Positions 1 to 14,766 of a DNA stretch of 64,000 nt are shown piece after piece. The stretch comes from Oscillibacter sp. ER4. GTDB taxonomy: Bacteria; Bacillota; Clostridia; Oscillospirales; Oscillospiraceae. Position 1 is the stretch's first letter. Each line of letters opens with the position of its first letter. Location of the stretch: assembly GCF_000765235.1 (NCBI RefSeq), contig NZ_JPJG01000034.1, positions 1 to 64,000 on the forward strand. The letters are read 5' to 3'. A program made the translations under genes and the position numbers. The notes below the pieces were generated by a model that worked only from the letters and a program-made list of their open reading frames with translations, ran no database searches and was not told the DNA's origin.

Positions 1-49
1 TTGGCGCTCTCCGCCGTGACAGCGGAGCTATTTTGCCGTGACACTGGGG

Positions 50-3000
50 CTAAATCTCCGTGCAAGTGGTGCTCATGATCCGAAATTTACAATCTGTGAA
101 CACCTCCACGATGCTGCCGTGGTCGGTAAACGGCGCTTCCTGCAAAACGGACAGGTCCTTCATCATGCCGTTATGAACGATGTACTCCACGATCTGGTTC
201 ACAAAATAGATCTGTCGGCTATCGAGGCTGGCATCGTTCAGGTACTGCGCAAAAGCCTCCTTTGCCGCATTCATATCAAGCCCGACAATTTCCCGTACGA
301 ACTCGCCCAGCGGCTTCTGGCCATACTCAGCCTCATAATCCTGCTTCGTCCCGACCTCGCTCCAGAGTGCTTTCTCCAGCGCCTGCACATCCTCCGCAGT
401 CAAAGGAACATTACTTTTTAGCTTGGCAATAACGGCGTCATCCATGTGCTGACGCACGTAGAACTCCGCCTTGGCCTTGTAGTTCTTCAGATCGTCGTTC
501 TCCAGCTCAGATTCTTTCCAGTCCACAGACAGAATTTCGTCATCAAAATTCGTATCATAGTGCGCTTTACTGACCGGAATATACTTGATGAGGTCACGCA
601 GATTCTCCCGGATGTGCTCAAATTCATTGATTCCGGCAGTCTCCACATAGTCTGTATGCAAAATCTTGTCGATCAGCTCAGCCTGTACCATAATTTCCGG
701 GATGTTCGCCACAGATGCAACAGCGGAAACTTTCTTAAACAGGTCGCTGCGGGCTTTAGCGTATTTCTTTCCGGCGAGATAGGCAAGCTCGATGCCATAC
801 ATCAGCGCGTCGAACCGCAGCGCCTTGGCATCGTCCTCTTCCGGTGTAATGAGCGGTGCAAGCTCCTGCCCCATGAGCAGCGTGTCCTCATAGGTCAAGG
901 CATTGTAACTGTCCGGTTCGGCATACCGCTCCACATATTTCAGGTGCTGTCGAACCGCAAAATTATCCTTGTTCAACTCCTGCACCTTGCGCACCATGTC
1001 CTCCACCAGCGTCTTGCGGAAGGCAATCAAGTCCGTCGTCTGATACGCCAAGTCCTGTAATTTGAAGGCAATTTGGGCCTTCAGATGGAAGATCGCACCT
1101 TGCAGGGCAATCATATTGGCGGTGGGCCGTCCCTTGTTCATGCGAAAGAACTCAAAGTTGCCGCAGAAGTCGAAGATGTAGAACTTGTCCTTGTCCTTAC
1201 CGTCCAGCAGCCCCGGACACAGACGGGTGCCTCGCCCGATCATCTGCCAGAACTTTGCCTTGCTCATGACCTTCTTGAAAAACACCAGATTCAGCACTTC
1301 CGGCACGTCAATGCCGGTGTCCAGCATGTCCACGGAAATGGCGATTTGAGGCAGTTTCTTCGGGTCGGAAAACTCGTCAATGGCGCTTTGGGCATAGGTC
1401 ATGTAGTTGTCGATGACCTTGGCAAAGCCGGGAAGATGCGGGTATTCCTGATTGAAAACCGAAAGGATCTTCTCTGCATGGGTGTGATTTTTTGCGAAGA
1501 TGATGGTCTTGCCCAGTTTGTTGCCGTAGTCGATGGTCAAGCCGTGGGTCATCAGTGTGTTCAGCACCTGCCGGATGGTGTCCTCGTTGAAAATCCACTC
1601 ATTCAGCGCCGACGATGCAATGCTGTCCGGCAGCTCGCCGTTTTCATCTTCAAAGGTATCTTCATAGGCCCGTTTATCCGCGTCGGAAAGGTCATCATAG
1701 ACGATGCCCTGTTCCATGAATTTCAGCTTCGTTTCCACGGACAGGAAGTCCACCAGATACCCGTCCTTCACCGCCTGCGCCAACTCATAGCCGTAGGTCG
1801 GTACGCCGTTTTCCAGCTCAAATATCTCATAGGTATTCTTGTCGATCTCATCCTTTGGCGTGGCCGTCAGTCCAACCAGCGGCGCGTCGAAATAATTGAA
1901 AATATCCCGGTATTTGTTATAAACCGAGCGGTGCGCTTCGTCGCAGATCACAAGGTCAAAGTGCCCGCAGGTGAAGAGTTTGCCCTCCTCGTCCTGTACA
2001 CTGTCGATGACGTTGTACATGGTCTGATAGGTGGAAAATACGCAGTGCGCTGTGTAGTTATCCTTCTCCTCGCAGAGATTGGTAACGGAGAGATCGGGCA
2101 GCAGATTCACAAAGCTGCGCTTGGCCTGCGTGACCAGACTGTTGCGGTCAGCAAGGAAGAGAATATTTTTCACCCAACCATGCTGGAGCAGCACATCGCA
2201 TAGGGCAATAACTGTTCTCGTTTTTCCGGAGCCGGTGGCCATGACCAGCAGCGCCTTGCGCCGGTTGCGTGCAAAGGCATCGCAGGCAGCTTTGATGGCG
2301 CCCTCCTGATAATAGCGTCCGGCTATCTTCTGATCCACCATGACATTTTTCAGGCTTGTCCGCATGGTCTGGAGATTGAACAGTTTTTCCAGATCCCGCT
2401 TGGAGTAGATAGCGGCACACTTGCGTTCGGGATAGATATTGTCCGTAATGCGGGTCTCAAAGCCGTTGGTCAGGAAAATGACCGGGCGGCGGTGATACTT
2501 CTTTTCCAGCAGGTCTGCATAGAGCTTTGCCTGCTGGCGTCCCTTGGCCACATCCACGCATGTGCGCTTAGCCTCCACCACTGCCAGCGGGCGGCCATCA
2601 TCGCCGTAGAGCACATAGTCTGCATAGCCGACCTCGGACTTGTTTGGCATACCGGGCAGCTCTACCTCATTCAGCCAGTCCTTGCCCTCTGTCCAGCCCG
2701 CATCTGTGAGCATGGTGTCGATATACAGCTTGCGGGTCTTGTACTCAGACAGGTCGAGGGGCTTGGGCACATAGGTCTGCTGCTGCTCGGTTCGGCGGGC
2801 GGTGAGTTCCTCCTTCAGCGCAGCGTTTTCCGCCATCAGCGCGGCGAGCTCCACCTCCGGCACTTCCTGCACCGGAGCGGCGGAAACTTCGCTTTTTTGC
2901 GTCAGCAGCGCAGGGTAAAAATGCCCTTCGGTGTAGTTCTCACCGTAGCAATAGGCCACAAAATCCAGAAAGGCATACAGGTTTTCCAGACACAGCGCCG

Positions 3001-3319
3001 CCTGCTCTTCGGTGATTTTCTTGCCGGTGTGGGCGGCATTGTTGCCCATGCGACGGATCAGGTCCATCCGCCGCCAGATGTCTGTGCCCACAATGTCCCG
3101 GAAGTCCTCGGTGTTCATCAGACTGACCAACGTGTCCTGATAAGGCATGACCAGCGCTTTGTCCACGGAATACATCCACTTCACGGCGAACTCCATCGCC
3201 CTGCGGCAGTTCAACACGCAGGCGGAGGGGTCGATATGTAGAATCCGTTCAGCGGAAACCGCAACGGAGGCAAAGGGCTCGAATTGCGGATCGGCAGCGA
3301 AAATGTCAAAGTTGGTCAT
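50..3319 (-). CDS. hsdR: Type I restriction enzyme R subunit, EcoEI-like (HsdR)
   Basis: The 1,089-residue protein is the motor and nuclease subunit of a type I restriction-modification complex, which translocates and cuts unmodified foreign DNA. The N-terminal ~135 residues look like a DUF4145 domain. An HSDR_N nuclease region with the VVEAKRT motif follows, then a superfamily 2 helicase with Walker A (ATGSGKT) and a DEAH box (CDEAHRS), and an EcoEI-type C-terminal region. No hsdM or hsdS is visible. Transcription runs towards the left edge, so they may lie beyond it or be absent. It starts 17 bp after the stop of the preceding hypothetical gene, suggesting co-transcription. Confidence 0.9.
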   Translation of the reverse strand: MTNFDIFAADPQFEPFASVAVSAERILHIDPSACVLNCRRAMEFAVKWMYSVDKALVMPYQDTLVSLMNTEDFRDIVGTDIWRRMDLIRRMGNNAAHTGKKITEEQAALCLENLYAFLDFVAYCYGENYTEGHFYPALLTQKSEVSAAPVQEVPEVELAALMAENAALKEELTARRTEQQQTYVPKPLDLSEYKTRKLYIDTMLTDAGWTEGKDWLNEVELPGMPNKSEVGYADYVLYGDDGRPLAVVEAKRTCVDVAKGRQQAKLYADLLEKKYHRRPVIFLTNGFETRITDNIYPERKCAAIYSKRDLEKLFNLQTMRTSLKNVMVDQKIAGRYYQEGAIKAACDAFARNRRKALLVMATGSGKTRTVIALCDVLLQHGWVKNILFLADRNSLVTQAKRSFVNLLPDLSVTNLCEEKDNYTAHCVFSTYQTMYNVIDSVQDEEGKLFTCGHFDLVICDEAHRSVYNKYRDIFNYFDAPLVGLTATPKDEIDKNTYEIFELENGVPTYGYELAQAVKDGYLVDFLSVETKLKFMEQGIVYDDLSDADKRAYEDTFEDENGELPDSIASSALNEWIFNEDTIRQVLNTLMTHGLTIDYGNKLGKTIIFAKNHTHAEKILSVFNQEYPHLPGFAKVIDNYMTYAQSAIDEFSDPKKLPQIAISVDMLDTGIDVPEVLNLVFFKKVMSKAKFWQMIGRGTRLCPGLLDGKDKDKFYIFDFCGNFEFFRMNKGRPTANMIALQGAIFHLKAQIAFKLQDLAYQTTDLIAFRKTLVEDMVRKVQELNKDNFAVRQHLKYVERYAEPDSYNALTYEDTLLMGQELAPLITPEEDDAKALRFDALMYGIELAYLAGKKYAKARSDLFKKVSAVASVANIPEIMVQAELIDKILHTDYVETAGINEFEHIRENLRDLIKYIPVSKAHYDTNFDDEILSVDWKESELENDDLKNYKAKAEFYVRQHMDDAVIAKLKSNVPLTAEDVQALEKALWSEVGTKQDYEAEYGQKPLGEFVREIVGLDMNAAKEAFAQYLNDASLDSRQIYFVNQIVEYIVHNGMMKDLSVLQEAPFTDHGSIVEVFTDCKFRIMSTTCTEI

Positions 3320-3336
3320 GGCGTATCGCCTCGCTT

Positions 3337-3909
3337 TTAGGTGGTAATATTTTCAAAATCAGGCAACTTTTTTGTTGCGCCATAGATTATTCTTGTTTTG
3401 CTATAGTCGCTCTCAATGTAATTACTGGTGTAATCAGCAAAATCAACATTTGCTGTCCTTGCCAAATAAAGAATTGAAATATAGAGTGCTGATAAGGCAT
3501 ATACAGCATTACTGTATGATGCACCCGAGAAATATTCTCCACGGTTGTGCTTTACTTCTTGGTATGCGTTCCACCACGAAAGTTTTCCGATGTCCCATCC
3601 TTGGAAAGGGGCGATAGTTCTTCCCCACCTTTTAACAGATACAACTGCATCCACGATACGGGGATATCTGGCCAAAATCGTTTCCTTATACTTCCCGATA
3701 GTTCCTTCCGGCTGTTTTCCTGTGATTTCAAGGCAGAGCAATTTGAAAACAGACTCTAATTCTGTACACGCAAGAATCAGGATTTTGGCAAACTCAAAGG
3801 AATGTACATTCTCCTGCCCAGAAGGTTCAATAAAGCGAGAGGTATTAGTAATATCACCCTCTAATGTGAGATAGTAATTCCAAATTTCGTTGATTGTCTG
3901 TGTTGTCAT
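3337..3909 (-). CDS. Hypothetical protein, HEPN-like, in a defence/mobility cassette
   Basis: The 190-residue protein has no family I can name with certainty. It looks all-helical. An N-terminal helix pattern (LACTELESVFKLL) and a later block with WWNAYQEVKHNR followed by a hydrophobic helix resemble the layout of HEPN-type proteins, where a polar/His motif lies between long helices. It sits between the relaxase and hsdR with short gaps (45 and 17 bp), so it is probably part of the same transcript. A role in defence is inferred only from this position; an RNase function is not demonstrated. The DNA is less GC-rich than its neighbours, which fits recent acquisition. Confidence 0.55.
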   Translation of the reverse strand: MTTQTINEIWNYYLTLEGDITNTSRFIEPSGQENVHSFEFAKILILACTELESVFKLLCLEITGKQPEGTIGKYKETILARYPRIVDAVVSVKRWGRTIAPFQGWDIGKLSWWNAYQEVKHNRGEYFSGASYSNAVYALSALYISILYLARTANVDFADYTSNYIESDYSKTRIIYGATKKLPDFENITT

Positions 3910-3954
3910 TACTCATCATCCCCTTCACATCAATCAGCCCGCCACTGAAATTCT

Positions 3955-4899
3955 TTACCTTTCCTTTCCATGCTGCCGCTGTTGCCGTTTCAGTTCCGCT
4001 AAAATCTCCGGCGGGATACGGTCAACCAGCCGCCGCATATCGTCCAGTTCGCTTTTTAACTTCGCCCGTTCCATCGTGTCATTCATCTTGCCTTTTTCGC
4101 TGGCCTTTGCCCTGACTTCCAGCTTTTCATTTTCCGCTAACAAGTCATTGATTGTGACCTTGTATTTTTTCAGTTGCCCGGAGAAGTTCTCCATCTGCGG
4201 AAACCACTTTTTCAGCATGGAGAGGGCTTCCTCTTTCTTCTTTCCGGCGTTCAGCGGGGTAATGCCGGAGAGAACCGCTTCAATGGCCCTCGCCTGTTTG
4301 GAGAGGTTGACCGCCTGTTTGAACAGCCGGGTGGGGATATGCTTCCGGCCCGTCTTGCTGGCGCTTTCCCCACGCTCCAGGTCGGGGTACTGCTCCACCA
4401 TACAGGCGTGAAAATCGTCCTGCCACTTCGTCAGATTGGCCCGGTTGCCGATAATTTCTTTGGCGCACAGGCGGTTGTCCTTTGTCAGCGGCACAAAGAC
4501 CAAGTGCAGATGGGGCGTTTTTTCATCCATGTGTACCATAGCCGAAACGATGTTCTCCCGGCCCACCCGGTCAATGAGGAAGTCCGCCGCCCTCTGGAAG
4601 TAGGCCGCTATCTCCTTTGGGGACTTGCCCTTGAAAAACTCCGGGCTGGCGGTAATCAGCGTGTCCACAAACCGAGTGCTGTCCTTGCGGGTGCGGCATC
4701 TGGCCTGCTCGATGCGGCTCTGAATGAAATGGTAGTAGCGGCCATCCGGCTTGACGATGTGGAAATTGTACTTGCTCCGGCTGGTGTCAATGTCCGGGTT
4801 GCTGGCGTACTGCTCCTTTTTCCGTTCATGGTGGGCTTCCAGCGGCCCCGCCGGGTGGCCCTTGTGCTTCTCAAATCGCAAAATTGCGTGTTGTGCCAT
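3955..4899 (-). CDS. mobV: MOBV-family relaxase (Mob/Pre plasmid recombination enzyme)
   Basis: The 314-residue protein nicks one strand at an origin of transfer so that the element can be mobilized by a conjugation machine. The diagnostic metal-binding motif HMDEKTPHLH is present (H123, D125, E126, H130, H132), as is the conserved N-terminal region around RSKYN. The C-terminal ~90 residues are charged and probably coiled-coil. No type IV secretion genes are in the window, so mobilization in trans is likely. A matching MOBV-type nic sequence lies about 4.7 kb away at 9,553-9,562. The usual position just upstream of this gene holds no such site. Confidence 0.92.
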   Translation of the reverse strand: MAQHAILRFEKHKGHPAGPLEAHHERKKEQYASNPDIDTSRSKYNFHIVKPDGRYYHFIQSRIEQARCRTRKDSTRFVDTLITASPEFFKGKSPKEIAAYFQRAADFLIDRVGRENIVSAMVHMDEKTPHLHLVFVPLTKDNRLCAKEIIGNRANLTKWQDDFHACMVEQYPDLERGESASKTGRKHIPTRLFKQAVNLSKQARAIEAVLSGITPLNAGKKKEEALSMLKKWFPQMENFSGQLKKYKVTINDLLAENEKLEVRAKASEKGKMNDTMERAKLKSELDDMRRLVDRIPPEILAELKRQQRQHGKER

Positions 4900-4928
4900 T
4901 GAACTCCTTTCCCCATTCCATTCCTTTC

Positions 4929-4946
4929 CGGCGGGTTTTCCCGCCG
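4929..4946. repeat. Short perfect hairpin upstream of the relaxase gene
   Basis: Seven-base arms (CGGCGGG / CCCGCCG) flank a TTTT loop, 30 bp before the relaxase start. It may act in RNA on the relaxase ribosome-binding region or be a remnant of a transfer origin, but the MOBV nic consensus is not present here. Confidence 0.4.
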
Positions 4947-5072
4947 AAAATATCTCTGATAGGATTGGAATGGAATGAATGTAAATAGATGGTTTTAATC
5001 TCTGTATTTCTATATACCGTCAGATTTCCGTACTTCAAGAGGATTGATTTTCGTACTCGCCAAGTACGGTTT

Positions 5073-5468
5073 TCAGCCCTCCGGCGTACCATAACCGGAT
5101 TTCTTGAAGTCGGTGTTTGGAACCGCTTCATAGGATTTCGGGTAAATGCGGTTGGGTTTTCCACAGCCCTGTTTCTGGATTTCCACCAGCCCCGCATACT
5201 GCAACTCCCGCAGGGTGTTGACCGCTTTCTGCCGCCCGCAGCGGAGCAAAGCGACCACCTCGCAGATGGGGTAGTACAGGTAGACCCGCCCGTACTCGTC
5301 CGCCCAGCCGTTCTTCCGGGACAACTCCGCCCGGCGCAGGACAAAGGCATACAGCACCTTCGCTTCGTTGCTCAAGGGCTGGAATGTGGGTGCTTCAAAA
5401 AGGAAATTGGGGAGCCGGGTGAAACTGAACGCCTTTTCCGGCTGGTGAATATAAATCGTGTTTGTCAT
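5073..5468 (-). CDS. RepA-like replication initiator, N-terminal domain, probably C-terminally degraded
   Basis: The 131 residues match the winged-helix N-terminal domain found in RepA_N-type initiators of Firmicute plasmids and integrative elements (pattern FLFEAPTF, LSNEAKVLYAFVL, KNGWADEYGRVYLYY, GKPNRIYP). Full RepA proteins are about twice as long. After the stop, the same frame continues with a segment reading EVRKSDGI, which resembles the charged tails of such proteins, so the TGA may be a premature stop. It lies between the VLP gene and the relaxase in the same orientation, a combination often seen together in gut Firmicute elements. It is related to the second copy at 12,531-12,881. 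Confidence 0.75.
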   Translation of the reverse strand: MTNTIYIHQPEKAFSFTRLPNFLFEAPTFQPLSNEAKVLYAFVLRRAELSRKNGWADEYGRVYLYYPICEVVALLRCGRQKAVNTLRELQYAGLVEIQKQGCGKPNRIYPKSYEAVPNTDFKKSGYGTPEG

Positions 5469-5579
5469 AGCGTGTTTTGTGGACGGTTAGAGGCCCGTTT
5501 TCCGGGGCGAATGATAAATGATACCAGCCGCCCCGGTTGAGGGCTTGCGGAGCCTTGCAAATCAAGGCTTTTCCCGCTC

Positions 5580-5993
5580 TTAACTGTCCACAGCAGACCT
5601 CCTTTTCCGTTCACTTTCTGTTTTCTGCCGCCTGTGAACTCTGGCGGCGCAGTCCGGGCAGTATTTGCCCCGGTTGGACTTCGGGACGAACACACCGCCG
5701 CACTCCGCACAGCGTTTCAAGTCCCTGTCCCGGTAAATCTCCGCTTCCAGCGTCCTGTCCAGCGGCAAGACCGCCCAGCGGAACCACTTGCAGCAGACGG
5801 AGAACGAAATCATCTGCGGACAGGCGCAGGTGTCGCCATCGTCCAGCGCAAGGCAGTTTCCGTCCTCGCAGTTGCAGCACTCCCGGCGTATCAGGCCGCT
5901 GGCTCGTCTCTTCTGGGGCGGGGTTATGCGGTAGGGGGAGCCGTCCGGCCTGTGTTCCAGCGGCGGCAGGTGTTGATAGGGTCTTTTGCTCAT
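5580..5993 (-). CDS. Cysteine-rich VLP-domain protein
   Basis: This 137-residue protein carries the VLPLDRTLE signature that gives the Cys-rich VLP family its name. Around it are many cysteines arranged as CCNCEDGNC, CACP, CC and a terminal CAECGG/CPDC pair that looks like a zinc ribbon. Its biochemical role is unknown. The family is found almost only on conjugative and mobilizable elements of Firmicutes, next to RepA-like and relaxase genes, which is the arrangement here. A basic C-terminal tail suggests possible nucleic-acid binding, an inference. Confidence 0.85.
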   Translation of the reverse strand: MSKRPYQHLPPLEHRPDGSPYRITPPQKRRASGLIRRECCNCEDGNCLALDDGDTCACPQMISFSVCCKWFRWAVLPLDRTLEAEIYRDRDLKRCAECGGVFVPKSNRGKYCPDCAARVHRRQKTESERKRRSAVDS

Positions 5994-6127
5994 GCGTCCC
6001 TCCGTTTTCTTTGGCGTGTTCTGTTTCCAAGGTGCTTGTCCATCGATGAACTATCCCAAGTCTACACCTTTTTGACCGCCTGTGCCGTATATCCAAGAGG
6101 TAGGAAATCAGCCTGAAAAACTCCCTA

Positions 6128-6156
6128 TTTCCACGCTCTCGGATTTGTGATATAAT
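6128..6156 (+). promoter_or_regulatory. Promoter with extended -10 box
   Basis: TATAAT at 6,151-6,156 is preceded by TGA (an extended -10). A weak -35 (TTTCCA) lies at 6,128-6,133. It faces the small gene at 6,222. Confidence 0.6.
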
Positions 6157-6221
6157 CAAAAAAAGATAAAAGACAAATTCAGGTTTCTGGTCTTCTTGCA
6201 CAAAATAAAGGAGGAGCTATT

Positions 6222-6485
6222 ATGCAAATTGTTTATATTCCAAGCGAATCAATGTCTGTTCAAGGTAAAAAAGATGAAATCTATAAAAGATATGGGAAAG
6301 ACTGGAATATTAGAGAACAGGGAGGAGGTAACGGAAATTGGTTGTTGACCAGAAAAAGTGATGTGCTTGTAGATGGAAAAAGTTATCGTACTTTTGTACT
6401 TGAACACTACGGTAAATCCAAGCTGACAGCGAAGCTTGTTGATAAATTTCGTGAAGATGTAGCAAATGGTAAAATAAAACTGTAA
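6222..6485 (+). CDS. Small hypothetical protein of the mobile element
   Basis: The 87-residue protein has a strong ribosome-binding site (AAGGAGGAG) 6 bp before its ATG and its own promoter, and it is followed by a 14-bp-stem terminator, so it is a complete single-gene transcription unit. The sequence is charged and lysine-rich, with a GGGNGNW segment in the middle. No family is recognised. Its AT-rich base composition differs from the chromosomal genes. Small proteins next to XRE regulators on mobile elements are sometimes toxins or anti-defence proteins, but nothing in the sequence shows that. Confidence 0.65.
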   Translation: MQIVYIPSESMSVQGKKDEIYKRYGKDWNIREQGGGNGNWLLTRKSDVLVDGKSYRTFVLEHYGKSKLTAKLVDKFREDVANGKIKL

Positions 6486-6493
6486 ATGCCTAT

Positions 6494-6530
6494 GCCGTTA
6501 TGCTATGAGCATAGTACATAGCATAACGGC
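6494..6530 (+). terminator. Strong stem-loop terminator
   Basis: Perfect 14-base arms (6,494-6,507 and 6,517-6,530) with a 9-base loop are followed by TTCTCTTT. It separates the small gene from the XRE regulator. Confidence 0.75.
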
Positions 6531-6563
6531 TTCTCTTTCGTTGAGCTAGCAAGGAGGGTGAAT

Positions 6564-7364
6564 ATGTCTTTATCCATACAAGAGCGATTAAAAGACCTAC
6601 GTGTGGAGCGTGGCTTGACGCTGGGGCAGCTTGCGGAGCAGACCGGGCTTTCCAAGTCTGCGCTGGGCAGTTACGAAACGGAAGACTTCAAGGACATCAG
6701 CCACTATGCCCTTATCCGGCTGGCGAAGTTTTACGGTGTGACCGCTGATTATCTGCTGGGGCTGTCTGAAATGAAAAATCACCCAAACGCCGATCTTGCA
6801 GACCTGCGTTTGAGTGATGAAATGATTGACCTGCTGAAAAGCGGGAGGATAGACAATACCCTGCTGTGTGAGCTGGCGGCGCACCCGGATTTCCCCCGGC
6901 TGATGGCTGACCTTGAAATCTATGTGAACGGAACGGCACTGAAACAGGCGCAGGGTGCAAACGCCATAGTGGACACGATGAGCGCAACTGTTATAAAAAA
7001 GCATAATCCTGGCATGAGTGATACGCAGTTAAGACAGCTTATCACCGCCCATATTGATGAGGACGAGTTTTGCCGCTATGTGATACAACGGGACATAAAC
7101 GGGATTGCCCTTGCTCTGCGGGAAACACACAAGGACGATTTTTTCAGCGTCCCAGAGGATAACCCGCTAAAAGAAATGCTGGAAACTGCTGGTGAAATCG
7201 TCAGCCAGGACAGCGACACGGAACAAGCGTACTTGGCGTTTATCTGCAAACGGCTCAAGCTGAATTTTAGGAAGCTGTCAGTAGAAGAACGGAAGTGGCT
7301 GAAAAAGATTGCGGAAAAATCCGACTTGCTGAAGAATCCAAAACCGCAGAGAGGACGAAGATAA
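6564..7364 (+). CDS. XRE-family transcriptional regulator
   Basis: The 266-residue protein has an N-terminal helix-turn-helix of the HTH_3/XRE type at about residues 5-60 (GLTLGQLAEQTGLSKSALGSYE, then YGVTADYLLGL). A longer helical region follows with no domain I recognise. The ATG at 6,564 is chosen because AAGGAGGG lies 5 bp before it; an upstream GTG is less well placed. Regulators like this control mobile-element gene expression. The target is not evident, though the small gene upstream and the efflux gene downstream are candidates. Confidence 0.8.
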   Translation: MSLSIQERLKDLRVERGLTLGQLAEQTGLSKSALGSYETEDFKDISHYALIRLAKFYGVTADYLLGLSEMKNHPNADLADLRLSDEMIDLLKSGRIDNTLLCELAAHPDFPRLMADLEIYVNGTALKQAQGANAIVDTMSATVIKKHNPGMSDTQLRQLITAHIDEDEFCRYVIQRDINGIALALRETHKDDFFSVPEDNPLKEMLETAGEIVSQDSDTEQAYLAFICKRLKLNFRKLSVEERKWLKKIAEKSDLLKNPKPQRGRR

Positions 7365-7367
7365 AAA

Positions 7368-7413
7368 ATGCCTGAACGGCGGTTCTGGTTTTTCAGAACC
7401 ACCATCCAGGCAT
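7368..7413. terminator. Bidirectional terminator between XRE and efflux genes
   Basis: Outer arms ATGCCTG/CAGGCAT and inner arms GGTTCTG/CAGAACC form a long hairpin flanked by A and T runs. It lies between two convergent genes. Confidence 0.75.
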
Positions 7414-7444
7414 TTTGTTTAGTAATAGAAAAAGGTGCAGTTGA

Positions 7445-8665
7445 TTATTGCGTATTGTCAATCTCTCTCAAACCGGGTAGTAAAAATACGGCAAGCGCAA
7501 CGATGATAATGCCAATTCCGCAAATGACAAACCATTTCTCAACTCCCAGCCGCTCCGCCAGAGGCCCGGAAATGACAAGGCCAAACGGCATGGCGAGGGA
7601 AGCGGCGCTTGTCAGTAGAGAAAAAACTCTCCCCAGATATTCTGGTTTGACCGTTTCTTGAAAAATCGCATTTTGCACACCGTAAAATGGAGCGGAAATT
7701 CCCATAACAGTACAGCACACAACAAAGACAAGAAATGCGTCTGGCGGCAAAAGCCCTGAGAGCATATTGCTAACGCCCATCAGGAGAACGGAAAGACCGA
7801 TGGTGTACCGCCGTTTCTTAAAACCGCCCCAAATGCTCAGAATGACTCCGCCAAGCAGCATACCAACCGCAAAAGCAATTTCAGCGGCAGAGGCATGGGC
7901 CGGTGTTCCTTTGAAGTATGACATACAGATGAGAGGAAAAAGCGTACTGATTGGCATATAAAAGAACATATAAATTACACCAATCCAGAGCAGAGCAAAG
8001 AGGCCCCTGTTTTGCTTTAATACCACATACCCCTCTTTCATATCCTGTAAAAACTGTTGTCTTTTCGTTTCTGGACATAGTTCAGGCGTTGGTATGGACG
8101 AAATCGCAACAGTCACACAGGCAAGGATTGCACCCACAATATCTAACAATATAATTGCATTAAGAGGCCAAACAGCATATAAAAACGCTGCGGCAGCTGG
8201 ACTGATAATCGCACTTACTGCTTGCATGGTCTGCGTGTAACCAGCGCATTTTGTAAGTTCCTCTTTTGGCACAATCATAGGTGTTGCTGCGCTGAATGCT
8301 GGAGAATGAAAAGCAGTTCCCGCACTTCGGATTAACAGGACAACCATAATAGACCATACGGGCAATTCCATGTAAAACGCCACCAGCGCCAGAATACCGC
8401 CAGCGGCGGCAATTATCAAATCCGCACCAATCATTACGCTTTTACGGCTGTGCCGGTCAACAAAAGCACCTGCAAACGGGCCTAAACAGGCTTGCGGCAA
8501 AAATCCAATCAGTGTTGCCGCCGTCAATATGATTGCAGAATTAGTTTTCGCAACCAAATAAAAGATAATGGCCATTTGCAAAATACCGCTGCTAATAAAG
8601 GATATTGCTTGTCCGGCAAGAAGTGTAAAATAAGTTTTTCTCCATGAATTGTTGTTTTGGGTCAT
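7445..8665 (-). CDS. Mef-family MFS efflux pump (macrolide efflux-like)
   Basis: This 406-residue, 12-helix major facilitator protein resembles Mef(A)/Mef(E) macrolide efflux pumps along its whole length. Examples are GFLPQACLGPFAGAFVDRH, IMIGADLIIAAAG-like and MELPVWSIMVVLLIRSAGTAF segments. The start at 8,665 is preceded by AAGGAGG at the right distance; a longer frame upstream belongs to the leader. It is likely to export 14- and 15-membered macrolides, but the substrate is inferred. No msr(D)-type ABC-F partner is seen next to it. The gene has a strong promoter and a leader with a terminator hairpin, so expression is probably inducible. Confidence 0.82.
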   Translation of the reverse strand: MTQNNNSWRKTYFTLLAGQAISFISSGILQMAIIFYLVAKTNSAIILTAATLIGFLPQACLGPFAGAFVDRHSRKSVMIGADLIIAAAGGILALVAFYMELPVWSIMVVLLIRSAGTAFHSPAFSAATPMIVPKEELTKCAGYTQTMQAVSAIISPAAAAFLYAVWPLNAIILLDIVGAILACVTVAISSIPTPELCPETKRQQFLQDMKEGYVVLKQNRGLFALLWIGVIYMFFYMPISTLFPLICMSYFKGTPAHASAAEIAFAVGMLLGGVILSIWGGFKKRRYTIGLSVLLMGVSNMLSGLLPPDAFLVFVVCCTVMGISAPFYGVQNAIFQETVKPEYLGRVFSLLTSAASLAMPFGLVISGPLAERLGVEKWFVICGIGIIIVALAVFLLPGLREIDNTQ

Positions 8666-8711
8666 AATGCGAACCTCCTTTTTTATTGCATTGTTCCTTT
8701 GTTTCTGCAAT

Positions 8712-8751
8712 AAAAAGCAGGCGTTGTCCCACAGAGAGGGCAGACGCCTGC
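8712..8751 (-). promoter_or_regulatory. Transcription attenuator hairpin in the efflux-gene leader
   Basis: Read on the minus strand, GCAGGCGT and ACGCCTGC (8,751-8,744 and 8,724-8,717) form a perfect 8-bp stem followed by TTTTT (8,716-8,712). This intrinsic terminator lies about 50 bp before the efflux start codon, inside a ~280-base leader. Short reading frames occur upstream, including GTG-TGT-TAA right after a GGAAGGAGG ribosome-binding site. The layout is that of drug-inducible attenuation known for other macrolide and tetracycline resistance genes. Confidence 0.65.
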
Positions 8752-8940
8752 ATAACAACAAAGCACGAAAAAACACCACGATACAGTTCAAAGACTGCTC
8801 GTGTCAAACCTACGTGTTCCTTTGCATACGCACGCAAAAAAAGCCCACCATCATGTGGAAAGGTACTTCTACTTTTTATTGCTTATTAGCGTACACAAAT
8901 TAACACACGTAAGCCTCCTTCCAATCTCAAACTGTCGCAC

Positions 8941-8970
8941 AGTATAACACACATCCGATAGACTTGTCAA
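8941..8970 (-). promoter_or_regulatory. Strong sigma-A promoter of the efflux gene
   Basis: TTGACA (8,970-8,965) and TATACT (8,946-8,941) are 18 bp apart on the minus strand. Confidence 0.8.
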
Positions 8971-9020
8971 CCATTTTTAACCTTGTTTTCCATCTTGTTT
9001 TTCCATCTCTTACGGGCAGT

Positions 9021-9145
9021 AGCAAAGCCAGGCGAGCCAGTCAACGGTCAAGATGAACGGCGCTTTCAGCGCCGCCGTTGACAGTCTCGCCCGTCTTTGC
9101 TAATGGGTAATCAAGGCGGGAAAGCCATTTTAGGGCTTTCCCGCC
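9021..9145. repeat. Nested long inverted repeats (cruciform-forming block)
   Basis: Arms of 27 bases at 9,021-9,047 and 9,075-9,101 pair with about five mismatches and enclose an inner hairpin GGCGC/GCGCC (9,059-9,073). A second perfect 12-bp hairpin follows at 9,115-9,126/9,134-9,145. No credible gene covers the region. It may be a transfer or replication structure or a structured RNA; no T-run marks it as a simple terminator. Confidence 0.6.
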
Positions 9146-9794
9146 CATTTCAATTTTGGGAGAAGAAAGGCCCCAAAATGAACGAGTGCGGCCAAACACT
9201 TTTAGGGATTGGCCACCTTGTCCACCCATCCAGCGGGGCGGCGGGGAACGGTCAAGGCCGGGCGTCAGCCCATTCATTTCAGCCTTGACGGTTTCCTGCC
9301 GTCCTGCTACTTTTCCCGGAGTGTGGCCACACATCTGGTCACGGTGTCCAGAGCTTTGGGACTTTTTGTCCCATAGGCCGGGGGCGGAGGACGAGGGACG
9401 GGGGCTTTCATAATACGCCCTGTCTGCTGCTGAAATCAGCCCTTTGTTTCCGGCTTACCAGCCCCAAACAAAGCCCTGCTTTCCTGCCGCGTCAAATGCC
9501 CTTGCCCTCCCCGGCGGCAACGGTATTTTCAGGGCAACGCCGACAGAGCGTATAACACACTACACTTTGCTCCGCAAAGTCGTGTGCCAAATGGGGCGCT
9601 GCCCCCTTTGGAAACCCCCGCAACAAACAGGTGCTATGCACCCAGCCGGGAGCATAGCGCCGTTTGTTGTCAGCAGCCCGTTTCACGGTCTGCGTGTAGT
9701 TCCTTGTAAACTGACCTAATGGAAAGTTTAAAGCTCATTATGACAGTGTTTTTAGGAATGATCTTTATCCCGCTTCCATCAACTGCTGTTGCAG
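9146..9794. other. Non-coding block of the mobile element
   Basis: I see no convincing gene here: open frames are GC-skew artefacts without ribosome-binding sites. The block contains the MOBV-type nic site (9,553-9,580), GC-rich GGGGC/GCCCC repeats near 9,593-9,605 and an imperfect stem at 9,621-9,639/9,652-9,669. The whole stretch looks like a transfer-origin region that has been moved as a unit. Confidence 0.5.
9553..9580 (-). other. oriT: Candidate MOBV-type origin of transfer (nic site plus hairpin)
   Basis: On the minus strand a hairpin ACTTTGC-GGA-GCAAAGT (9,580-9,564) is followed after two bases by TAGTGTGTTA (9,562-9,553). The TAGTGTG/TTA sequence is the nick consensus described for pMV158-type MOBV relaxases, and the hairpin sits where their recognition hairpin does. 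The predicted nick is between 9,556 and 9,555. A MOBV relaxase is encoded at 3,955-4,899 in this same element. Confidence 0.65.
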
Positions 9795-10124
9795 TTATCT
9801 TCTCAGCAGTATTCTCGATGTATTTATTGCATTTTGTAAGATCGGCAATACTCCCTCCTTGCTGATGGCTTCCCGCAATTCTGGGGACAAATCAGAACAT
9901 AAATCTATCACATCAAAGGTCAGCAATGTATGCGTTTCTTCCTCAACATCCAGTCTGAAACGGCATACATTGCCTCCCTGCACAGCTAAATCAATATCGC
10001 TTGTGCGGCGGAAGTCCCCTCGCGCGCGGGAGCCGAAGAGAATCACCGTTTGGATGTGATGCCTATTTGCCAGATTAATGATTTGGTGAATAACCGTTGA
10101 ATCAATTCCGTACTTTGTCATCAC
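9795..10124 (-). CDS. MntA-like minimal nucleotidyltransferase
   Basis: The 109-residue protein has the polymerase-beta nucleotidyltransferase core: GSRARGDFRRTSDIDLAV at about residues 32-49, giving the GS motif and the paired metal-binding aspartates (DID), with a further Asp later (FDVID). In MntA/HepT toxin-antitoxin systems such a protein AMPylates and silences a HEPN RNase toxin. No HEPN gene lies directly beside it. The HEPN-like protein at 3,337 is 6 kb away and is not a clear partner. It has its own promoter. It could be an orphan antitoxin or have another substrate. Confidence 0.75.
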   Translation of the reverse strand: MMTKYGIDSTVIHQIINLANRHHIQTVILFGSRARGDFRRTSDIDLAVQGGNVCRFRLDVEEETHTLLTFDVIDLCSDLSPELREAISKEGVLPILQNAINTSRILLRR

Positions 10125-10185
10125 ACCAACTCCTTCGATAAGCCTTCAAGCTCGCTGACCGCTCCACCTACAATTCTACAAAGTA

Positions 10186-10213
10186 ATTATACCATAAAAC
10201 GCTGTATCCACAA
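10186..10213 (-). promoter_or_regulatory. Promoter of the nucleotidyltransferase gene
   Basis: TATAAT (10,191-10,186) with TTGTGG 16 bp upstream on the minus strand; the start codon is about 60 bp downstream after AAGGAG. Confidence 0.55.
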
Positions 10214-10270
10214 GCAATATTTCGATGCTTGCGTCCCAGAAGCGGGAATTGATCGATATAACAAAAACGG

Positions 10271-10301
10271 GCGCGCAGCCTTGAGAAAGGAGGCTGCGCG
10301 C
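10271..10301. terminator. Bidirectional terminator after mobC
   Basis: Perfect 10-bp arms GCGCGCAGCC/GGCTGCGCGC with an 11-base loop; T-rich tracts follow on both strands. Confidence 0.7.
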
Positions 10302-10356
10302 TCTGCTTTTTGTCGTTGGCCTTGTTCAGACGGCATATATCTTGGAATAAGCTATC

Positions 10357-10662
10357 TCAAAGCCGCTTTGCGATCTGCCAGATCACCCGCTGTGCTGTCG
10401 TGACTGCGGCAATGTCTTCCTTCGTGGCAAAGCCGCGGGTGTTGACAACATGAGCGATTTGATTGATGTTATTTCCAATGCCGGCGAGTTGACGCCGGAT
10501 TTCGGCGTATTCAGCGAGTGGTCGGGATCGGAGGTTCATGCCAGAGATCAGCGCACGGAGGAATACTTCCATTGGGAAGCCAGAGAGCATAGCCTGCTGT
10601 TTCAAATGTTCATGTTCCTGCTCATTCAAACGGAGCGATATTTTGATTGGTCGTTTTCTCAT
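10357..10662 (-). CDS. mobC: MobC-like relaxosome accessory protein
   Basis: The 101-residue protein matches the MobC family, which binds the transfer origin and helps the relaxase nick. It has an N-terminal ribbon-helix-helix (ISLRLNEQEHEHLKQQA) and the conserved C-terminal block IRRQLAGIGNNINQIAHVVN. The ATG at 10,662 is preferred over an upstream TTG because it starts the conserved RHH segment. MobC normally works with a relaxase encoded directly downstream, which is missing here: a terminator and the nucleotidyltransferase gene follow instead. The module is therefore incomplete. Confidence 0.85.
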   Translation of the reverse strand: MRKRPIKISLRLNEQEHEHLKQQAMLSGFPMEVFLRALISGMNLRSRPLAEYAEIRRQLAGIGNNINQIAHVVNTRGFATKEDIAAVTTAQRVIWQIAKRL

Positions 10663-10694
10663 GATCGTTTTTCCTTTCAATTCATAAGGGGTTA

Positions 10695-10740
10695 TAGGGG
10701 AATTGCTTCCCCTAACAAGCGCATTTGGACGGCCAAATGC
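10695..10740. repeat. Two perfect inverted repeats upstream of mobC
   Basis: TAGGGGAA/TTCCCCTA (10,695-10,714) and GCATTTGG/CCAAATGC (10,721-10,740), each with a 4-base spacer, lie 30-80 bp before mobC. Transfer origins of MobC-type systems often lie here, so this may be a second, older oriT or a MobC operator. Confidence 0.45.
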
Positions 10741-10809
10741 TATGCTTGCGAATTCAGCTTCTGTATAGCGGTTTCATTTTTGTGACAACGCTGTTGTAAA
10801 ATTAACTTC

Positions 10810-10838
10810 TTGATTTATTGGTGTCCAATGTGTATAAT
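10810..10838 (+). promoter_or_regulatory. Promoter with embedded palindromic operator
   Basis: TTGATT (10,810-10,815) and TATAAT (10,833-10,838) are 17 bp apart. The spacer contains the palindrome ATTGG-TGT-CCAAT (10,817-10,829), well placed for autorepression by the AbrB-like product of the next gene. Confidence 0.65.
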
Positions 10839-10862
10839 AATTGTGAGAAACTTTTGAGGTGA

Positions 10863-11417
10863 ATGACCGTGCTACACGAGGAACGAACTGCAAATATTCT
10901 TATCAACAAGGCGGGTGGAAACACCGGTCCGGATGCCAAAGGTTACCGCGTGGCGCTGCCATCTGTTTGGATGAAGGCCCTGGGTATCTCTGAGGGCAGC
11001 CGGACCGTAACGCTGCAATTTGATGGGGAAAGCATCACCATCCGCCGCCCTGCCGTGTCTGATTACGATGTCTTTCTGGCCAATGCCCGAAGCAGCGCTC
11101 ACGCCCTCCTGATCCTGTACTACTACGATGGGAATAAGCTCTGTACGAAGATCTGCGCTGACCAAACCACTCATCAACTTGCCATCGAAAACGAGGCCAG
11201 TTCTCCCCTTTCCACCGCTTTCGGCGTGAACCGCAAGCCCACATGGGACGATCTGCAAATCTTCTTGAAAGACCGCTGTGTGCCGCAGGAGCGGGACGGT
11301 TTGAAATATTACCTGTCTGACTTGGGACTGGACTGCTATGACCCGCTGGCGATCATCCGCAAGACCGAAGGGCGCATGGCAGAGGATTCGTGCTGGATCA
11401 AAATTGTGGAGGGCTGA
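10863..11417 (+). CDS. AbrB-like antitoxin-type protein paired with a HipA-like kinase
   Basis: The 184-residue protein has an N-terminal swapped-hairpin AbrB-like DNA-binding region (KGYRVALPSVWMKALGI, then VTLQFDGESITIRRP). Its C-terminal segment (LKYYLSDLGLDCYDPLAIIRKTEGRMAEDSCWIKI) resembles the short conserved region that precedes HipA-like kinases. The gene lies 2 bp before the HipA-like gene, so the pair is translated from one message. An operator palindrome sits in its promoter. A toxin-antitoxin or stress-response role is inferred from this layout. Confidence 0.7.
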   Translation: MTVLHEERTANILINKAGGNTGPDAKGYRVALPSVWMKALGISEGSRTVTLQFDGESITIRRPAVSDYDVFLANARSSAHALLILYYYDGNKLCTKICADQTTHQLAIENEASSPLSTAFGVNRKPTWDDLQIFLKDRCVPQERDGLKYYLSDLGLDCYDPLAIIRKTEGRMAEDSCWIKIVEG

Positions 11418-11419
11418 AT

Positions 11420-12229
11420 ATGTCGATCAGACTGACAACGGGAAGCCGCATCGCAGAAACCTCGTCTAAGGGCAATCAGGAAAAATGGCTGGCAGATGGC
11501 CGCTGGTACAAGCTGGATCTGTTCGGCTACGAGGGACTGGCTGAAGCCGTGACCTCTGCGCTGCTGGCACAGACCAATACAGATGCGCTGGGCTTTCACT
11601 ATGTGACCTACCGCATGGAGCGGATGGAAGTCCACGGACACATCCGAAACGGCTGTTCCAGTGCCAATTTTCTACGTCAGGGCGAGGCCATCCTGACCGT
11701 TGCGGAACTGCTGCGAAAAGGCGTTGGCCCGGACTGGCAGACCGCGGTAAACCGCCTGCCCAATCTTCAGAGCCGCCTTGCGTGGTTGGTGGAGCAGGTT
11801 GAGCGGCTGACGGGACTTGACCGCTTCGGCACCTATCTGACGCTGCTGTTCGAGGTGGATATGCTGTTCGGCAACGAGGACCGGCATCTGAACAACATCG
11901 CTGTGCTGCGCTGCGGTGATGGCTTTGACTACTGCCCCATCTTTGACTTCGGCGCGGGTTTGCTGTCCAACACACGGGATTATCCCATGGAAATCGAACC
12001 GGCCGCATTGGTGCGGCAGCTCAAGGCTCAGCCCATGAAAACGGGCTTTGTCCGACAGGTCCACGCGGCGCAAAATCTATACGGGCCGCAGCTTCGCTGC
12101 GACTTTGCCGAAAAAGAGATCATGGCCTCCCTTTCAGAGCCGCTGGAGTTTTACGCCAAGCGGGATGCTCCCTATATCCGTGACCGTGTGACGGCCTGCA
12201 TCAAATTCCAGCGGAAAAAGTTATTCTGA
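11420..12229 (+). CDS. HipA/CtkA-like protein kinase
   Basis: The 269-residue protein carries the kinase C-lobe motifs of the HipA family: GNEDRHLNNIAVL (catalytic Asp and Asn) and IFDFGAGLL (the DFG-like metal-binding Asp). It lacks the long N-terminal domain of E. coli HipA and resembles shorter CtkA-type kinases. The ATG at 11,420 follows GGAGGG; an upstream in-frame GTG lies inside the previous gene. HipA-type toxins phosphorylate protein targets such as aminoacyl-tRNA synthetases, but the target here is unknown. Its 3' end overlaps the convergent small gene by 9 bp. Confidence 0.8.
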   Translation: MSIRLTTGSRIAETSSKGNQEKWLADGRWYKLDLFGYEGLAEAVTSALLAQTNTDALGFHYVTYRMERMEVHGHIRNGCSSANFLRQGEAILTVAELLRKGVGPDWQTAVNRLPNLQSRLAWLVEQVERLTGLDRFGTYLTLLFEVDMLFGNEDRHLNNIAVLRCGDGFDYCPIFDFGAGLLSNTRDYPMEIEPAALVRQLKAQPMKTGFVRQVHAAQNLYGPQLRCDFAEKEIMASLSEPLEFYAKRDAPYIRDRVTACIKFQRKKLF

Positions 12230-12391
12230 TTTTCTGCCGTCCTCCCGCAGCCACGCGCCCCGCAGCACCATGCGGAGATACGCCGCCCGCCCGATGCCGT
12301 GGTCCTGCGCGGTGCGGGTGAGCCGCTCATATTCTGCCTGCGTCAAGCGGAGATTTACCTGCTTTTCCCGTAAGTTCTCTTTGTTCTTCAT
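12221..12391 (-). CDS. Small ribbon-helix-helix protein (MobC N-terminus-like)
   Basis: This 56-residue frame begins MKNKENLREKQVNLRLTQAE and continues with YERLTRTAQDHGIGRAAYLR, which has the beta-strand/helix-turn-helix pattern of RHH DNA-binding proteins and of MobC N-termini. An AGGGAGGATC ribosome-binding site precedes the ATG. It overlaps the 3' end of the HipA-like gene on the other strand. It may be a relaxosome fragment or a regulator of the neighbouring rep-like gene. Confidence 0.65.
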   Translation of the reverse strand: MKNKENLREKQVNLRLTQAEYERLTRTAQDHGIGRAAYLRMVLRGAWLREDGRKSE

Positions 12392-12467
12392 CTGATGATC
12401 CTCCCTATTATTCTTTTTTCGGCTTGGTATATATTTATCTCAGTATCGCTCTACTCAGTCTTATTAG

Positions 12468-12556
12468 ACGCTGAAAATCAGCGCACCTGAACGCTGATTT
12501 TCAGCGTTCTTGAAATTCGAAAATCGAAAGTCAAGAAATTCGGTTTTCGAATTTCA
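12468..12556. repeat. Two tandem long hairpins beside the second rep-like gene
   Basis: A perfect 16-bp stem (12,468-12,483/12,492-12,507, 8-base loop) is followed by an 18-bp stem with one mismatch (12,511-12,528/12,539-12,556). The second stem overlaps the 3' end of the RepA-like frame. They may terminate transcription or be remnants of the repeated RepA tail. Confidence 0.6.
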
Positions 12557-12881
12557 GGGGGTACAGTGCAGACGGCTTCCCCAACCCTTGCCGTTTCCGG
12601 CGCAGCAGGCCAGCTTGCTCCAGTTCGGATAGCAGCTTCTCCGCCTTGTTGTGGGCGCAGCCCAAGTCCTCCATAATGTGGCTGATGCCATAGTAAACAA
12701 AGGCGCGCCCTTGCTTATCGAACCACCCGCTTTTGCGGGAAAGTCCCATTTTGTCCAGCAATAATCCGTAAAGTAATTTTGCTTCACAATTCATGTTTTT
12801 GAATGGCTCCTCCGTAAACAGCACCTTTGGAACACGGTAAAATGTAAATAACTCTGATTCATGCTCATAGAAATAATCCAT
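12531..12881 (-). CDS. RepA-like replication initiator fragment
   Basis: The 116 residues match the same RepA N-terminal domain as the gene at 5,073 (LFTEEPFKNMNCEAKLLYGLLLDK, RKSGWFDKQGRAFVYY, GLGKPSALYP; quoted in parts). The ATG at 12,881 is supported by AGGAGG upstream. The expected C-terminal half is missing, but downstream of the stop another frame reads SNKTE, stop, SDTEINIYQ, typical of RepA tails. That suggests decay by frameshift or stop. Replication initiators on integrative elements support rolling or theta replication after excision; this copy is probably not fully functional. Confidence 0.7.
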   Translation of the reverse strand: MDYFYEHESELFTFYRVPKVLFTEEPFKNMNCEAKLLYGLLLDKMGLSRKSGWFDKQGRAFVYYGISHIMEDLGCAHNKAEKLLSELEQAGLLRRKRQGLGKPSALYPLKFENRIS

Positions 12882-12972
12882 ATGGTTCCTCCTTGCCCGT
12901 TGGGGCATAAAAATAGCGGAGGCAGGCATTTGACCTGTCTCCGCTTTTTGCTTTTGTTTCCTTCTTGGGGCG

Positions 12973-13236
12973 TTATTTGGACTCTCGCAGGATCTCAAGT
13001 GCGGCGTTTTTGATGTTGTTCATCGCACCTACCCACGCCATTTGATCCTGCGCCTTCAAGTCCTCGTCGATGCCCTGTGCTTCCGCCATCTGGCGGATGA
13101 TGGTTTCCAGCAGCTTGTCCTCTGTGGTGTCCGACTCCGGCGGCAAAAGGCAGGGATAATACTGCTCGCCCCGCAGCTCGTAGTAAAGACCGTTCTCAAA
13201 AATGACCGGCGGCAATGGCGGTAAATTCTGCTCCAT
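12973..13236 (-). CDS. TnpV-like element protein, short form
   Basis: The 87-residue protein shares with TnpV proteins of Clostridial transposons an N-terminal block (YYELRGEQYYPCLLPPE) and especially the C-terminal block LKAQDQMAWVGAMNNIKNAA. The central part common in ~120-residue TnpV proteins seems shortened. The function of TnpV is unknown. It lies 63 bp after parB in the same direction and is followed by the RepA-like gene, so the three probably form one maintenance module. Confidence 0.65.
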   Translation of the reverse strand: MEQNLPPLPPVIFENGLYYELRGEQYYPCLLPPESDTTEDKLLETIIRQMAEAQGIDEDLKAQDQMAWVGAMNNIKNAALEILRESK

Positions 13237-13299
13237 AATCCTCGCTCCTTTCTGCCGCTATTGTACGGAAGAAATTTGTATAGTGCCAGTATACGAAAA

Positions 13300-14148
13300 T
13301 CATCGCTCTCCCCTGTTCTTTGCGCGGTAACGGGCCTCCAGCAGCTTGATGATCTCCCGCTCCATCTGCTGCGCAGAGTAATTGCGCGGGAAATACTTCC
13401 GCAGCGACTCGGTTTTGATGCGGATTTGCTCTTTCTGATTGGGCTTTTCCTCGGTGAGAATGGCGTACAGTACCTCCGGCGTCAGTTTTGCCTCGCGGGA
13501 GAGCTGCTTCATACGGAGTGCCTGTGACAGCGATGGTGTGGCGTCCTCCCGCCCGATCAAGTCCCACAGCTCCGCCTGCTCGTCGCGGGTGAGATAGGAC
13601 AGCTCCACGGCGGGAGAAAAGGCGATGCGTCCATCGTCCACCATCTGAAGCAACGGCGGAACAAGGTTGGTCAGGCGGATGTAGCGTTGAATGGTGCGGC
13701 CACTTTCGCCGGTTGTTTCACCAATAACATCTGCTGTTTCATAATTCCCGACAAGTTGTCGGGGATTATCTTTACGTGGCCTCCCCGCTTGCCGTTTCAT
13801 GGCCTCCAACTTCATCTTGTAGGCAAACGCCTTTTCACTGGGCAGCAGGTTTTCCCGCTGGAGGTTGCTGTCCACCATCAGGATCACCGCTTCATCGTCG
13901 GTCATTTCCCGCACCAGCACCGGCACGGTGGGCAGGCCCAATTTCTGCGCCGCCAATCGCCGCCGATGCCCGCTGACCAGCTCGTAGCCCTCCCCTTTTG
14001 GCCGCGCCAGTAAGGGTGACAGAATACCATAGGTGCGGACGCTCTCCACCAGCTCGTCCATGGCAGCGTCCTCCCGCACCTGATAGGGGTGCTTTTTAAA
14101 GGGTGTCAGCTTGTCCGGTGGAAGCTGCGAGATAAATTCCTTCACCAT
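13300..14148 (-). CDS. parB: ParB/Spo0J-family partition protein
   Basis: The 282-residue protein has a ParB CTPase/nuclease-like N-terminus with the signature VSGHRRRLAAQKLG and VDSNLQRENLLPSEKA. A KorB/ParB helix-turn-helix region follows (DVIGETTGESGRTIQRYIRL). Element-borne ParB proteins bind parS-like sites and stabilise or regulate the element. No parA is present. The start codon overlaps the end of an open frame that runs up to the cotJC junction, so the operon's upstream part may have been cut off at the element end. Confidence 0.88.
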   Translation of the reverse strand: MVKEFISQLPPDKLTPFKKHPYQVREDAAMDELVESVRTYGILSPLLARPKGEGYELVSGHRRRLAAQKLGLPTVPVLVREMTDDEAVILMVDSNLQRENLLPSEKAFAYKMKLEAMKRQAGRPRKDNPRQLVGNYETADVIGETTGESGRTIQRYIRLTNLVPPLLQMVDDGRIAFSPAVELSYLTRDEQAELWDLIGREDATPSLSQALRMKQLSREAKLTPEVLYAILTEEKPNQKEQIRIKTESLRKYFPRNYSAQQMEREIIKLLEARYRAKNRGER

Positions 14149-14340
14149 ACCGCCCCTCCCTCCGAAAGCGCGGCGGACACGTTCACATGGTAGTGAAGGT
14201 CGGAGCCGCGATAGTGGTAGTCCGCGTCAAAGGAATGAAGCCAGCCGGCATTTCGCACATTCGCGTTTTCGTTCTCTTTTTCGGCCTGTACCCCTTGCAG
14301 CGCAAGGGTTTTTCGCGCTTGTGGCCCTTGGACTTCCACA
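14142..14340 (-). pseudogene. Possible C-terminal remnant of the gene upstream of parB
   Basis: An open frame ending GAVW-stop overlaps the parB start by the usual TATGGTGA-type junction. It can be read back for about 66 residues until the element boundary, where it runs into antisense of cotJC. The peptide (for example WLHSFDADYHYRGSDLHYHV) is not a family I recognise. It may be a real gene truncated at the junction, or chance. Confidence 0.35.
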
Positions 14341-14757
14341 GTCGGCACAGAGGAGCTGGGGCATTTGGAGATGGTCGGTACGATCGTCCACCAGCTCACG
14401 CGAAATCTCACGGAGGAACAGATCAAGGAGGCTGGATTCGAGGCCTATTTTGTCGACCACACGACAGGCGTTTTCCCGCAGTTCGCCTCGGGCTACCCGT
14501 GGTCGGCGAGCACCATGCAGGTCACGGGCGACACCATCGCGGACCTGACGGAGGACCTGGCGGCAGAGCAGAAAGCGCGCGTGACGTACGACAATATCCT
14601 GCGCCTTTCCGACGATCCGGACGTGAGTGATGTCATCAAATTCCTGCGTGCGCGCGAGATCGTACACTTCCAGCGCTTCGGCGAAGGCCTGCGCCTCGCC
14701 AAAGACCGCCTGGACGAGAAAAATGTCTACTATGTAAACCCGAGCTTTGACAAGTAA
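14341..14757 (+). pseudogene. cotJC: cotJC (manganese-catalase-like spore coat protein), N-terminally truncated
   Basis: From GTC-GGC at 14,341 the frame reads VGTEELGHLEMVGTIVHQL and continues to the normal C-terminus (DLTEDLAAEQKARVTYDNIL, FLRAREIVHFQRFGE). This matches CotJC/Mn-catalase proteins, with the Glu and His metal ligands E-E-x-x-H and E-I-V-H. About 80 N-terminal residues are missing: upstream codons are unrelated element sequence. CotJC is a minor inner-coat protein. A terminator follows. The N-terminal half should lie on the far side of the element if this is a simple insertion. Confidence 0.8.
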
Positions 14758-14766
14758 AGATGACAG

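Follow-up and report, generated by a model that had tools for sequence, protein, structure and literature searches.

The spore coat gene cotJC of Oscillibacter sp. ER4 is interrupted by two mobile elements, at sites where the gene is also split in related Clostridia

The window analysed here is a stretch of 64,000 nucleotides from the Oscillibacter sp. ER4 genome (2.73 Mb in 130 contigs, all of which were searched). It forms the start of contig C70, and this contig begins inside a mobile element, designated element A, whose right-hand part occupies positions 1 to 14341 and whose left end, with the recombinase, lies on contig C56. The genes identified in the right-hand part are encoded on the reverse strand and comprise a type I restriction R subunit-like cargo gene (50-3319; ResIII, EcoEI_R_C and HSDR_N domains), a Mob_Pre relaxase (3955-4899), a replication initiator of the RepA_N type (5073-5468), an MFS transporter (7445-8791), a NikA/MobC mobilization protein (10357-10680), a second RepA_N initiator (12531-12998), a TnpV-like transposon protein (12973-13236) and a ParB partition protein (13300-14148), which is the last gene before the junction with cotJC.

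The 3' piece of cotJC lies on the forward strand at 14342-14757 and carries codons ~62 to 198 plus the stop codon, as judged from its translation, from a Pfam Mn_catalase match (62-197, 4.5e-30) and from the rejoined 198 amino acid protein described below. A preliminary description, made from the window alone, had placed a mobile element boundary inside cotJC, on the grounds that the CotJC frame starts abruptly at 14,341 and has a normal C-terminus and that the DNA to its left is an element ending in parB. These points were borne out: the frame is open between 14341 and its stop codon at 14757, the mobile element genes listed above precede it, and element DNA stops at a 13 bp attachment core, TCGGCACAGAGGA (attR; 14342-14354, forward strand), at which the cotJC frame begins. 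The opposite end of element A, on contig C56, has an identical core, and the shorter repeat singled out earlier, GTCGGCAC, is part of this core and exact at both ends. A computed alignment of CotJC to the Lactobacillus Mn catalase 1jku places the Mn ligands at E35, E65, H68, E136 and H169, and all except the first are encoded by the window piece. The E65 codon is at 14353-14355. Within the window sequence no ATG, GTG or TTG occurs in the CotJC frame ahead of the TTG at 14365, which is downstream of the codons for both E65 and H68, so that the window piece alone cannot form a complete active site.

A search of all contigs with the Pfam Mn-catalase model found three partial cotJC matches and no intact copy, so the second complete gene that would have refuted the preliminary description is absent. 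The matches cover codons 1-32 on contig C76 (10773-10868), codons 28-66 on C56 (5207-5326) and codons 61-198 in the window, the middle piece amounting to only about 38 codons. The missing 5' sequence, which had been predicted at the far end of the element, was thus found outside the window, but in two parts, making this a three-piece rather than a two-piece gene. Just upstream of codons 1-32 on C76, two further cotJ-like genes were recognized by eye, and the sporulation gene spoIVA is also present in the genome. While the window and C56 share the core of site A, C76 and C56 have the sequence GG.GGCC in common (site B). Joining the three pieces at these cores produced a 198 amino acid CotJC that is 93% identical to that of a relative with an intact gene and has all five Mn ligands.

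The integrase anticipated at the far end of element A proved to be a serine recombinase with Resolvase, Recombinase and Zn-ribbon domains (C56:3549-5255), outside the window, whose gene ends beside the core. The same core at both ends, a recombinase beside one of them, empty sites in relatives and an exact in-frame rejoining show that the insertion was site-specific, as had been suggested. In the relative G012 the same site is occupied by a complete element of 19 kb, which matches C56 with 96% identity at its left end and window positions 10709-14760 with 93% identity at its right end. The combination of an integrase on C56 with the Mob_Pre relaxase and NikA/MobC protein in the window meets the criterion for an integrative mobilizable element, and on gene content this is what element A is predicted to be. 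The assembly, which consists of contigs without reads, gave no sign of excision of element A.

Element B, at site B, corresponds to contig C99 (41,947 bp; 41.9 kb), which encodes a terminase, a portal protein and, beside one end, its own large serine recombinase with the same three domains. These genes satisfy the criterion for a temperate prophage, and element B is so classified from its sequence. An IMG/VR virus record, also of 41,947 bp, contains an identical recombinase. Both ends of C99 coincide exactly with the core GGCC, and the contig shares an overlap of exactly 92 bp with each of C76 and C56. In de Bruijn assembly, a break at such a core arises if the element ends are also joined together in the sample, whether in an excised circle or in a tandem copy. 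The possibility that the break was caused by a second copy of element B was rejected, since the end sequences of C99 occur nowhere else in the assembly. The exact break at the core in the absence of a second copy implies that an excised circle of element B (or a tandem copy) was present in the sequenced DNA, an inference from contig ends and not from reads. The assembly did not reveal the attB junction of a restored chromosome, because C76 and C56 both continue through the core. Contigs beginning exactly at a core were also found in the draft genomes G195 and G287; an interpretation of the G287 contigs as mixed forms was discarded, as their sequences do not overlap.

A survey of 40 relatives and of 300 family genomes found the same gene split at the same places. 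At least two complementary cotJC pieces were present in ~60 of the 237 family genomes with a match, or about one in four; this was a hand count, which splits at site D would raise. Further split genes were found in other families in a draw of 243 Clostridia genomes. The named carriers are Papillibacter cinnamivorans DSM 12816 and Pseudoflavonifractor sp. An44, in each of which the split gene is contained in a single contig. Four sites were distinguished: site B at codons ~30-32 (core GG.GGCC in ER4), site A at codons ~62-66 (core TCGGCACAGAGGA in ER4), with a variant A' extending to codon 68, site C at codons ~134-136 (core GCAGCAGA) and site D at codons ~172-176 (core CGCTTCGGCGA). Sites A and C overlap ligand codons, and sites B and D are no more than about five codons away from one. 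Some genes hold two or three elements simultaneously: G444 has a 4.7 kb element at site B together with a 10.6 kb element at site A, and in G464 cotJC is in four pieces, although its site A junction has no clear core and was left out of the counts. Genomes assembled as one contig are split as well (G129, G444, G491, G562 and G356). An artefact of contig ends was rejected, since relatives, including the first four of these, have the pieces on single contigs with recombinases between them. In G356 (L254/L255) the site A halves are ~157 kb apart, an unusually large gap. An IMG/VR provirus record (L234:6451-6561) contains a cotJC cut both at site B and after codon 65, likely a double interruption.

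A large serine recombinase adjoins one end in nearly every element whose ends were read, and these recombinases group by site. In a recombinase tree the site C and site B enzymes each form one clade (support 100 for both), with that of C99 falling in the site B clade; 19 site A elements form one clade (97), and the A' enzymes of G064 and G181 stand apart (100). Site labels change nine times on this tree, compared with 27.1 times in shuffles. Six IMG/VR proviruses with a site B recombinase lie in cotJC at site B, and others have an intact dyad attP. The elements range from 2.4 to ~157 kb and include phage (element B), mobilizable elements (element A) and mini-elements. The 2.4-kb element of G056 contains only a recombinase and a 64 amino acid ORF, and a similar small ORF is found upstream of many other site A recombinases; by inference, and without comparison to known factors, it is the best candidate for a directionality factor. 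A strict search for sigma-E-like promoters upstream of the recombinases gave 3 hits in 41 (shuffled mean 1.1; controls 2/16), and a loose search gave 9 in 41 (shuffled mean 4.0; controls 2/16), barely above the shuffled sequences.

Our explanation is that the two elements inserted into cotJC by means of their own recombinases and that excision resembling that of the skin element restores the gene, most likely in the sporulating mother cell; we assign this a probability of roughly 0.82. What the sequences show is the gene in three pieces, the cores shared between element ends, the recombinase genes, an exact in-frame rejoining, recurrence at the same sites with recombinase clades specific to them, and the purifying selection described below. 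Codons ~30-32 would have been entered by a prophage and codons ~62-65 by an integrative mobilizable element, each through its own large serine recombinase; when the two cores of an element recombine precisely, a circle would be released and cotJC left uninterrupted and in frame. In B. subtilis, cotJ is a mother-cell operon. The mother cell would be the most likely place for excision, being the cell in which cotJC is needed and in which the change is not inherited; this triggering is inferred by likeness to the sigK element skin and to SP-beta, which interrupts spsM. When the spore is made, the elements are very probably removed from the DNA, again an inference, made without read or expression data.

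The main challenge to this explanation comes from ordinary insertion into a dispensable gene, in which cotJC would merely be a convenient attB, carriers would lose CotJC and the halves would be intact only because the insertions are recent. Some insertions may indeed be tolerated, if CotJC is dispensable, and the elements, of such varied size, include phages that look active and mobilizable elements whose integrases are of the ordinary kind, which is compatible with this possibility. Nevertheless, all 35 rejoined genes (39 junctions), joined by a fixed rule at the core (for G279 at the shared core ACCGAGG), were full-length, in frame and had kept the five ligands, and no decayed half was seen among them. 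Species pairs with a common split site differ at 30-77% of synonymous positions (pS 0.3-0.77), yet dN/dS was no more than 0.13 in both halves wherever it could be computed, including the half without a start codon, and the group medians for split genes were close to those of intact genes. Two-gene elements common to three species have recombinases that are only 55-80% identical and still have open frames. Constraint of this kind would not be expected of a dead or dispensable gene, and we consider ordinary insertion unlikely. With both halves constrained and every rejoined gene intact, restoration of the gene by excision at the time of CotJC production is the simplest account. The long-term purifying selection on both halves also lends strong support to the earlier comparison with intervening elements such as skin and SP-beta; excision during sporulation was not observed.

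Switching of the phage type without sporulation control, by stochastic or induced excision in vegetative cells, would restore cotJC only in cured cells. Element B, a phage genome whose circle junction is implied without a restored chromosomal junction, suits this idea, as do the core-starting contigs of G195 and G287. However, species-level persistence under strong selection requires reliable restoration whenever CotJC is used, and minimal elements without phage genes persist, which leaves this alternative quite improbable. That the pieces, all of which have open frames, are expressed as separate polypeptides assembling into a working split CotJC without DNA rejoining is very unlikely, given that the window piece has no start codon before E65/H68 and that genes in three and four pieces exist, with a middle piece here of so few codons.

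A further counterpoint to restoration by excision is that in two genomes, G441 (L261:6390-6488 and L262:6993-7496) and G174 (L110-L112), a single contig holds the complementary pieces in opposite orientations. The G441 pieces have the site B core in common. Either these arrangements need inversion instead of excision, or the assemblies are wrong.

Known intervening elements interrupt sigK, spsM, spoVFB, spoVR, gerE and yabG (PMC10747680, PMC4191935, PMC5595907, PMC5025042). In sigK, skin is excised by SpoIVCA in B. subtilis and by CD1231 with the RDF CD1234 in C. difficile (PMC5025042). The cotJC elements resemble skin in having a large serine recombinase, a location within the coding region of a sporulation gene of the mother cell, a short shared core and an expected precise in-frame rejoining. 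They differ in that cotJC encodes a structural spore coat enzyme whereas sigK encodes a regulator, in that cotJC has at least four separate sites and up to three elements at once, and in that sporulation-timed excision has not been demonstrated for cotJC. SP-beta, like element B, is a phage interrupting a spore-envelope gene, and its excision rebuilds spsM (PMC4191935), but no SprB-type directionality factor was identified for cotJC, which also holds a second, non-phage element. Other sporulation genes are interrupted by gin (gerE of B. cereus, PMC5595907), vfbin (spoVFB), vrin (spoVR) and yin (yabG) (PMC10747680, PMC4191935); cotJC is not among their targets, and a single site per gene is described in those reports. 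Gin also lacks phage genes, and at 28.6 kb it is far larger than some cotJC elements (2.4-3.3 kb). The elements interrupting nif and other heterocyst genes of cyanobacteria (PMC4874684) are similar in occupying many genes, in sizes down to little more than a recombinase, in recombinases that track element history and in their terminal-cell logic; they differ in cell type and target genes, cotJC being an endospore gene.

The cotJC elements lie inside a sporulation gene with both halves present, have identical cores with exact rejoining of the frame and carry their own large serine recombinase. Judged by these skin-type criteria, their anatomy is that which defines intervening elements, the regulation of excision being inferred. 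We found nothing relevant on excision, interruption or prophage in cotJC among open-licence papers, which does not exclude a report elsewhere. The novel features are cotJC as the target, multiple sites in a single gene, genes with two or three interruptions, how commonly split genes occur, and the mini-elements. Intervening elements of sporulation genes were previously known from a handful of strains with one site per gene, and cotJC is a hot spot, offering dozens of natural replicates with different recombinases, sizes and ages. The choice of insertion points in unchangeable codons, the acquisition of developmental regulation and the time of persistence thereby become testable. The elements are also a source of site-specific integrase/attB pairs for gut Clostridia, and they warn that cotJC is overlooked when the genomes of many spore formers are annotated.

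A broader version of our proposal, which we regard as somewhat better than even, is that cotJC in Clostridia may be a gene of up to four DNA pieces undergoing a programmed, multi-step mother-cell rearrangement, with several unrelated families of elements, namely phages, mobilizable elements and two-gene mini-elements, each using a different cluster of metal-ligand codons as attB and some elements having become near-permanent. The ~3-kb site A elements of G129 (L067:1469-4298), G196 (L061:1031-3853) and G288 (L060:1687-4600) contain little besides a recombinase and a pyrimidine nucleoside phosphorylase gene. No other gene of this kind was detected in any of the three genomes; in two relatives from the same genus it is located elsewhere. 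It is possible that a host gene was captured by these elements, penalising their loss, and near-permanence in the three species is perhaps due to this sole detected copy.

Small cotJC elements at five other loci (L055, L059, L063, L069 and L075) carry single genes of chromosomal type, encoding RecQ, a PhzF-like protein, an alcohol dehydrogenase, a polysaccharide deacetylase and a methyladenine glycosylase. At one cotJC site B (L139:9816-9910), two tandem units of ~46 bp lie between GGCC cores, resembling a shrunken attP remnant.
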